A stretch of DNA of 64,000 nt. Origin: Verrucomicrobiia bacterium. Lineage in GTDB: Bacteria; Zixibacteria; MSB-5A5; DSPP01. A model generated the notes under the pieces. That model was not told where the DNA came from. It ran no database searches and saw only the letters and a list, made by a program, of their open reading frames with translations. Every line of letters begins with the position of its first letter. Positions within the stretch are counted from its first letter, which is position 1. Shown here piece after piece: positions 47,735 to 49,772 of this stretch. Location: positions 1-64,000 of the forward strand of contig DATLYY010000077.1 of the NCBI GenBank assembly GCA_035574275.1. Direction: 5' to 3'. Both the position numbers and the translations under genes were made by a program.

Positions 47735-48523
47735 ATGGACTGGGCAGAAACTCTGAGAAGTCAAATCTCAATACTTGCAGGACAATACGCTGAGAAGTAT
47801 GACATATCTCATCTGGTGACACCTAGTGGCGTTGTTATTTTCAAAGAAGACTTGGACAATGGTCTTAATGGCAACTTCATCGAGGCATCTTATAAAACAA
47901 TCTTGAATGACGAGAATTGGAAAAAAAGATTGCAGAAACCGCATCCGCATTTTGAAAGTGATTCAAATATCCGTGAATTAGATTCTTGCACCAGTTCTGA
48001 TGCTCTTCTTATGAATATTTTCTGCTTTCCCGATGTTATTGAGGAGAGATTACTTGGAAAACTTTTAGGAATTACCGGTTTTCAACAGCCCGAGTTTGGT
48101 TATGAACCCGGGGTTATGAAAAATGGAAGCCGCGACAAAACCGAGATTGACATGAAAATAGGTAAAGTCATTTTCGAATCTAAGCTGACCGAAAATAACT
48201 TTACCGATAAAGAGAAACATGTGGTTGAGCGCTATGATAACTTTCATAAGGTTTTTAATTCTGCGGATCTTTTTCAAGACGAGTCAAACTATAAAAACTA
48301 CCAATTGATTAGAAACGTATTAGCTGCGTTTGAGAACGGCTTTTCTTTTTACCTCTTGTGCGATGCAAGGAGACCGGACTTGGTTAGAGAATTTTACTTT
48401 ACGGTTAGATGTGTTAGAGACCAAAATCTAAGATCTAGGTGCTGCATAATTTTTTGGCAGGAAATTGCCGATTCTGTTAACCTGAACCTTCGGTTTTTTT
48501 TAAAGGAGAAGTATGGGTTGTAG
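47735..48523 (+). CDS. PD-(D/E)XK nuclease-like protein, 262 aa, AT-rich
   Basis: A probable restriction-type nuclease. EID-x8-ESK at Asp139, Glu148 and Lys150 is a good PD-(D/E)XK core, and LDSCTSSDALLMNIFCF recalls the conserved SSQAL-N segment of PGN_0703-like putative endonucleases. GGAG lies 5 nt before the ATG. Base composition and codon use (many AAT, AAA, TTA, AGA) differ strongly from both sides, which suggests recent transfer. No methyltransferase partner is visible. Confidence 0.65.
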   Translation: MDWAETLRSQISILAGQYAEKYDISHLVTPSGVVIFKEDLDNGLNGNFIEASYKTILNDENWKKRLQKPHPHFESDSNIRELDSCTSSDALLMNIFCFPDVIEERLLGKLLGITGFQQPEFGYEPGVMKNGSRDKTEIDMKIGKVIFESKLTENNFTDKEKHVVERYDNFHKVFNSADLFQDESNYKNYQLIRNVLAAFENGFSFYLLCDARRPDLVREFYFTVRCVRDQNLRSRCCIIFWQEIADSVNLNLRFFLKEKYGL

Positions 48524-48896: not shown

Positions 48897-49772
48897 ATGA
48901 AAAAGATTGGGCGGCTGACGAAACTGAACACCCTCCTCGTGGCGGGGATTCTCTATTTTTCGGCACCGCTTATCGCCGATGAAAAATCCAAAGAAATTGC
49001 CTGGCAGGACTACGCCAAGGCCACGGCCGAAGCAAAGAAAGCGAACAAACCGGTTCTAATCGATTTCTGGCGGCCGGGCTGAAAGTGGTGCGCGCGGATG
49101 GAGGAGTCGACCTACGTCGCTTCCAAAGTCATCCGCCTCCAAGACCAGTTGGTCTTTGCGAAAGTAAACGGACGGGAGGATACAGCGCTGGCGCGTCAGT
49201 ACGGAATCGCCGGCTATCCCACCATTATCCTGCTGGCCTCCACCGGTGAAGAAATCGACCGGCTGTGGGGTTACTTCCCGCCGGATAGTTTCCATCAAAC
49301 CATCACCAATTATATGGCGGGCGTGGGGACTTTGCCGTCTCTGGAAAAGCAGTTGGCCAAAGAACCGGAAAATATCGGCCTGATGATGCACGTTGCCGAA
49401 AAATACGCCAGCCGCAGTCAATTTGAAAAATCCGTCGAACTCTACAAACGGGTGGTCGCCATGGACCGCGAAAACAAAAGCGGCAAAGTTCCGGAGGCCA
49501 TCTACAATGCCGGGGATGCCCTGTCCCGCGGTAAGAAATTTATGATAGCCAAACAATACTTTCAAACGCTCGTGGAGAAGTATCCCGCTTCGGAACTATA
49601 TAACGACGCCTTGGTGGAGATCCCGTACCAGTACGAGCAAGCGGGAGATACGACGAGTGCCTTGAAGGGCTACCAACAACTGCTCAAAGACCACCCCACC
49701 CACCCGGACTCGACTTGGCTGCGGAAACGGATCGAAAAGTTCAGTACGCCCGCCAAGGAAACCGATAAGTAA
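48897..49772 (+). CDS. Thioredoxin-fold TPR protein with in-frame TGA at the redox site (candidate selenoprotein)
   Basis: Read through TGA 49080-49082, this gives one 291-aa protein in a single frame. Residues 1-27 are a signal peptide (ending LIADE). The thioredoxin domain has VLIDFWRPG, then the TGA as residue 62, then KWC65 ARMEESTY, and cis-Pro108 in GIAGYPTI. The TGA aligns exactly with the first Cys of the CxWC redox motif (U-K-W-C). Residues about 150-285 hold three to four TPR-like helix pairs (for example SQFEKSVELYKRVVAMD, GKKFMIAKQYFQTLVEKYP). Selenocysteine insertion is my preferred reading; a nonsense mutation or sequencing error of TGC/TGT remains possible. If it terminates, an ATG at 49098 would begin a redox-less remnant. 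Confidence 0.7.
49094..49136 (+). promoter_or_regulatory. SECIS-like imperfect hairpin just after the in-frame TGA
   Basis: GCGGATG (49094-49100) pairs perfectly with CATCCGC (49130-49136). Inside, GGAG pairs with TTCC (one G-U), a T-C mismatch follows, and CGAC pairs with GTCG around a CTAC loop (49112-49115). The loop lies 30-33 nt after the TGA, inside the distance used for bacterial SECIS elements. It lacks the usual G at the start of the apical loop, so the match is partial. Confidence 0.45.

Follow-up and report, generated by a model that had tools for sequence, protein, structure and literature searches.

The gene at positions 48897 to 49772 of the window (the whole stretch of 64,000 nucleotides that was analysed) raises the question of whether a TGA codon inside its reading frame is a stop, an error or a site at which selenocysteine (Sec) is inserted. 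A single frame runs on the + strand from an ATG at 48897 to a TAA at 49770-49772 and comprises 291 codons, with one internal TGA at codon 62. Translation of this frame places the codon in the context LIDFWRPG-U-KWC-ARMEESTY, U standing for the TGA. A preliminary description had located the TGA, at 49080-49082, in one open frame at the first Cys of a thioredoxin CxWC site, and the same frame and context were found here. The features of the gene are as follows.

48897..49772, + strand: complete thioredoxin-TPR selenoprotein frame, with TGA as Sec62 and TAA as stop (full-length homology in a 40-row alignment)
48897..48977, + strand: probable signal peptide of the Sec type, MKKIGRLTKLNTLLVAGILYFSAPLIA (recognised by eye; the first 30 residues of the model are of low confidence)
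49080..49082, + strand: TGA codon, residue 62, read as selenocysteine (frame and family alignment)
49080..49091, + strand: active site UKWC, Sec62-Lys-Trp-Cys65 (sequence and alignment)
49097..49118, + strand: candidate bacterial SECIS hairpin (weak alone; its position agrees with stronger hairpins in relatives)
49218..49220, + strand: cis-Pro codon of the thioredoxin fold, P108 (invariant in the alignment)
49323..49745, + strand: TPR solenoid, residues 143-283, eight predicted helices in about four repeats (Pfam TPR_6/TPR_14/TPR_19; model helices 146-283)

The read-through protein matches PF00085 Thioredoxin (E 2.5e-11), PF13098 (E 4.3e-11) and TPR_6 (E 2.3e-10), and contains a [CU]xxC site, a cis-Pro and a predicted thioredoxin fold. 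An AlphaFold2 model built from the 40-row alignment (pLDDT 92.3) has the thioredoxin fold at residues 39-140, followed by the eight TPR helices. Sec62, Cys65 and P108 are invariant in this alignment, as are G117, R122, T145 and A255; the cis-Pro and TPR repeats beyond the TGA are intact, as first described. Many relatives have a lipobox-like N-terminus (for example, ...LSSC, by eye in the same alignment) instead of a signal peptide, and these two kinds of N-termini, judged by eye, argue against a cytoplasmic location of the family. No convincing promoter- or terminator-like match flanks the gene.

Homologues of the window protein are found in 132 of the 133 genomes of the phylum. The nearest named relatives, in a scan of named genomes queried with six close alignment rows, are records of Candidatus Zixiibacteriota or candidate division Zixibacteria, one of them 76% identical. 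Altogether 129 loci were aligned, and exclusion of three more distant paralogues left 126 members, in which the site column holds TGA in 69, Cys in 54 and Ser in 3, but never TAA or TAG. Since TAA and TAG do not occur in this column, flags for these codons among the homologues were put down to model overrun at gene ends. The window gene thus has an in-frame TGA where homologues hold Cys, the pattern by which selenoproteins are recognised. Apart from the three Ser rows every homologue has Cys or Sec at the site, and the sequence downstream is without decay, which bears out the check on homologues proposed at the outset.

In principle, a thioredoxin with an ordinary Cys could also have gained this TGA by a nonsense mutation or by an error in sequencing, as the codon is one base from TGC or TGT, and the weakness of the window's own SECIS-like hairpin would fit such an origin. 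However, the same TGA is present in an independent metagenome-assembled genome (MAG) of the same genus (G008), whose protein is 79% identical to that of the window, as well as in the other TGA members of the family; because it recurs in independent genomes, the TGA is not a read error. Between the window genome (G000) and G008, codons 63-291 differ with a dN of 0.105 and a dS of 0.873 (dN/dS about 0.12), which indicates that selection preserves the protein sequence encoded past the TGA. Recurrence in independent genomes and purifying selection together rule out a read error or a pseudogene, and with TAA and TAG absent from the site and a full Sec machinery in the genome (see below), a nonsense or error origin is extremely improbable. 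The view of the preliminary description that random nonsense was unlikely is borne out by these same observations.

The TGA could, alternatively, be decoded as another amino acid, such as Trp, by general recoding or suppression, given that the frame stays open whichever residue the codon stands for. This is hardly credible: TGA is the terminal stop in 7 of the 16 window genes checked, which rules out general recoding; relatives have Cys or Ser at the site, never Trp; and the genome has a tRNA-Sec with a TCA anticodon. The selenoprotein reading of the window gene is therefore well supported, and the comparative evidence argues strongly for insertion of Sec at codon 62.

A check for the Sec machinery, suggested with the preliminary description, found all of its parts in the window genome (2.51 Mb in 79 contigs, 99.9% complete). 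The tRNA-Sec (C22:68870, 68.4 bits; anticodon TCA by ARAGORN), selA (recognised by eye) and selB (C22:70327, E 1.8e-95) form one cluster in this order on contig C22, and selD (L189) lies at C42:52251-53180 (E 2.6e-105). The selD gene has an in-frame TGA at its own active site, SGG-U-AGK, and thus gives the cell a second selenoprotein at least, one of a well-established type. Decoding of selenocysteine is close to universal in Zixibacteria, as selB exceeds its cut-off in 114 of the 133 genomes and tRNA-Sec does so in 106; for this reason, the presence or absence of selB proved uninformative as a separator of Sec and Cys carriers. The TGA form also occurs in four MAGs (G069, G095, G098 and G128) that have no tRNA-Sec, selA or selB above cut-off; G128 is rated 100% complete. 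Assembly gaps are probably the cause, since the three genes form one cluster in the window genome and a single gap could lose all of them. Outside the phylum, Sec (TGA) homologues occur in G189, G324, G327 and G236 (L171, L181, L183 and L184), and all of these genomes have a tRNA-Sec.

Sec and Cys have been exchanged repeatedly in this family. A maximum-likelihood tree of 124 members, inferred with the U letters masked, needs about 20 changes between Sec and non-Sec, at least 11 of which are forced by well-supported branches. Over codons 62-78, one Cys row (L084) is identical to its Sec sister (L126) except for TGT in place of TGA at the site and one terminal base. Both retain the hairpin, and L084 appears to have gone from Sec to Cys recently, leaving a fossil SECIS. 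In seven other members (L035, L067, L082; L040, L068, L072, L111) one or both redox residues are lost (SPWC, SAYS, SKWS, CPWS) and the TPR part is kept, hinting at a role beyond redox chemistry. With Ser in three members and the second Cys absent in several, redox activity is not indispensable throughout the family.

The candidate hairpin of the window gene, GAUG.AGG-[AGUCGA]-CCU.CGUC, has a 6-nt loop from 22 nt past the UGA, with G second in the loop. Alone it is not better than chance, being matched by 9 of 60 synonymous shuffles; its fold z is about +1.2 over 43 nt and -1.35 over 61 nt. Clade-wise pair counts were used in place of single-sequence SECIS folding of this gene. The largest Sec clade (32 rows) has a 7-bp hairpin with all 224 of 224 cells paired and a 4-nt loop that begins with GG and starts 23 nt past the UGA, while pairing drops to 79% among this clade's Cys rows and to 27-49% in slid controls. 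Compensatory change in this clade comprises 11 double changes, 10 of them from G-C to C-G at one pair; ten rows show C-G against G-C in the rest. In other clades the register of the hairpin is slightly shifted, and hairpin energy differs between Sec and Cys rows in a comparison that ignores relatedness. The SECIS of the window gene is thus supported mainly by analogy with the hairpins of its relatives.

A UGA within a reading frame might also yield two products, a 61-residue secreted peptide at low selenium and the full enzyme when selenium is plentiful, so that the codon would work as a selenium-responsive switch. Termination at UGA is expected in selenoproteins when selenium is scarce, and an ATG at 49098, right after the TGA, opens a mechanical open reading frame (ORF) of 224 amino acids. 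The argument is generic, however, as it applies to any selenoprotein, and the downstream ORF lacks the signal peptide and part of the thioredoxin domain; such a switch is very unlikely.

The gene very probably encodes an exported (periplasmic) Sec-containing thiol:disulfide reductase, the UGA of which is decoded by the cell's own SelB and tRNA-Sec with the aid of a downstream hairpin. The UGA at 49080-49082 would be read by these two factors, assisted by the hairpin just beyond it. After export, Sec62 would attack a disulfide or other oxidised sulfur of a client, acting in the reducing direction, and Cys65 would resolve the mixed selenosulfide. The enzyme would then be re-reduced, most likely via a single membrane electron carrier of the DsbD/CcdA type; the only CcdA/DsbD_TM-type protein of the window genome is encoded at C5:10898. 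The C-terminal TPR solenoid would hold the client or a partner complex.

This domain arrangement invites comparison with CnoX/YbbN. The best match in the PDB is E. coli YbbN/CnoX (3qou, E 3.8e-8), and 3qdn is also among the top matches. Like the window protein, CnoX (E. coli K-12 b0492) has an N-terminal thioredoxin domain followed by a TPR solenoid and is of similar length. It is a cytoplasmic chaperedoxin with holdase activity that hands its clients over to GroEL/ES. Unlike the window protein, CnoX has no Sec, its active site in E. coli is SQHC, and its TPR family is TPR_20 (PF14561). CnoX matches this domain strongly (E 7.8e-30), 9 of 40 family members do so weakly and the window protein not at all. 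The profile match between the window family and CnoX is mostly confined to the thioredoxin part, with little coverage of the TPRs, so that homology does not extend over the whole length. The whole-chain TM-score of 0.29 likewise indicates that the two proteins share their domains and domain order but differ in how the domains are oriented. The type of TPR and this difference in orientation led to the rejection of an identity as CnoX; from the model, the window protein is not a CnoX, though it may work in a chaperedoxin-like manner.

One such manner of working would be that of a Sec chaperedoxin outside the cytoplasm, in which the TPR part would bind proteins that are unfolded or oxidised and the thioredoxin domain would protect or repair their cysteines, Sec serving for speed or for resistance to over-oxidation. 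This would refine the reductase reading rather than oppose it. It draws on the CnoX/YbbN structures at the top of the PDB matches, with their identical domain order, and on members that have wholly or partly lost the redox pair (SKWS, SAYS, CPWS) and kept the TPRs, just as E. coli CnoX has lost this pair in part (SxxC) (PMC8129009). The low whole-chain TM-score, the differing orientation, a profile match that leaves most of the TPRs uncovered, the lack of TPR_20 and the cytoplasmic location of CnoX all speak against it, and the proposal is a tentative one that is more probably wrong than right.

The thioredoxin-TPR gene of the window differs from most of its relatives in its surroundings. One or both of the two glycine dehydrogenase genes, gcvPA and gcvPB (names confirmed), lie alongside on the same strand in 114 of the 126 family members, in the conserved string accC-gcvH-gcvPA-[DUF2007]-thioredoxin/TPR-gcvPB-ABC ATPase-pyrB-pyrC (for example, L191-L204; some names by eye). 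This position, next to gcvPA or gcvPB or between the two and within an accBC-gcvH-gcvPA-gcvPB-pyrBC string, prevails in most Zixibacteria although the thioredoxin-TPR protein looks exported. The copies without gcv context are those of the window, of G008 and the second copies in G009 and in family f19, all of them Sec forms, together with three members on short contigs. In the window genome gcvPA runs directly into gcvPB, so the thioredoxin-TPR gene is found at another place, flanked by a DUF2087 gene and an operon for 2-oxoacid:ferredoxin oxidoreductase. Just upstream, a restriction endonuclease of the REase-ARP family is predicted at 47735-48523 (PF22558, E 8.4e-42), and the DUF2087 gene follows it. 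Two genomes with two copies, G009 (L194/L195) and G129 (L196/L197), have Ser or Cys in the gcv-linked copy and Sec in the dispersed one; the genus of the window has the dispersed Sec copy only. Matches to the window protein are lacking in phages, on which ground a phage origin was rejected, and those in plasmids are distant thioredoxins only.

Thioredoxin-like selenoproteins as such are well known. An inventory of 2026 lists 119 prokaryotic selenoprotein families and subfamilies, among them Sec-thioredoxin (PF00085, UxxC) and a Sec thiol:disulfide interchange protein (PF13098, UxxC), and mentions neither TPR nor tetratricopeptide (PMC13188914). As listed, these two share with the window protein the fold, the Pfam domains and Sec as the first residue of UxxC, but their entries give domain and motif and name no TPR, whereas the window protein carries a fused TPR solenoid of about four repeats and appears exported or lipid-anchored. 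The thioredoxin domain of DsbD gamma, DsbH and DUF255-type proteins also aligns (PF13899, PF03190); these proteins have Cys for Sec and no TPR, and DsbD has a transmembrane part in addition. The Trx7/PDZ selenoprotein (NF041199) and TsoB (NF045694) are, like the window protein, thioredoxin-like selenoproteins joined to another domain, but their partner domains are different and Trx7/PDZ is listed with CxxU. Against these two NCBIfam families the window protein scores 16.5 of 300 bits and 57 of 805 bits, respectively, far under the cut-offs, and none of the NCBIfam selenoprotein families exceeds its curated cut-off among the best 25 of 26 matches (E up to 10). A search of open-access literature joining Zixibacteria and selenoproteins returned only a study of marine Deltaproteobacteria; an earlier report may exist elsewhere. 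As far as checked, in that inventory and NCBIfam, the thioredoxin-TPR selenoprotein family is undescribed, in agreement with the preliminary description, which had regarded a Sec-thioredoxin with TPR repeats as new.

Public annotation is likely to truncate or overlook this selenoprotein. It is conceivable, if on balance doubtful, that the whole phylum has exported Sec chaperedoxins, which would form a selenium-dependent redox chaperone of the cell envelope that is usually gcv-linked and has swapped Sec, Cys and redox-dead Ser some 20 times. So many Sec/non-Sec changes in one gene, including some that separate closely related sisters with a fossil SECIS still in place, make the family well suited as a natural data set on when and why enzymes trade selenium against sulfur.
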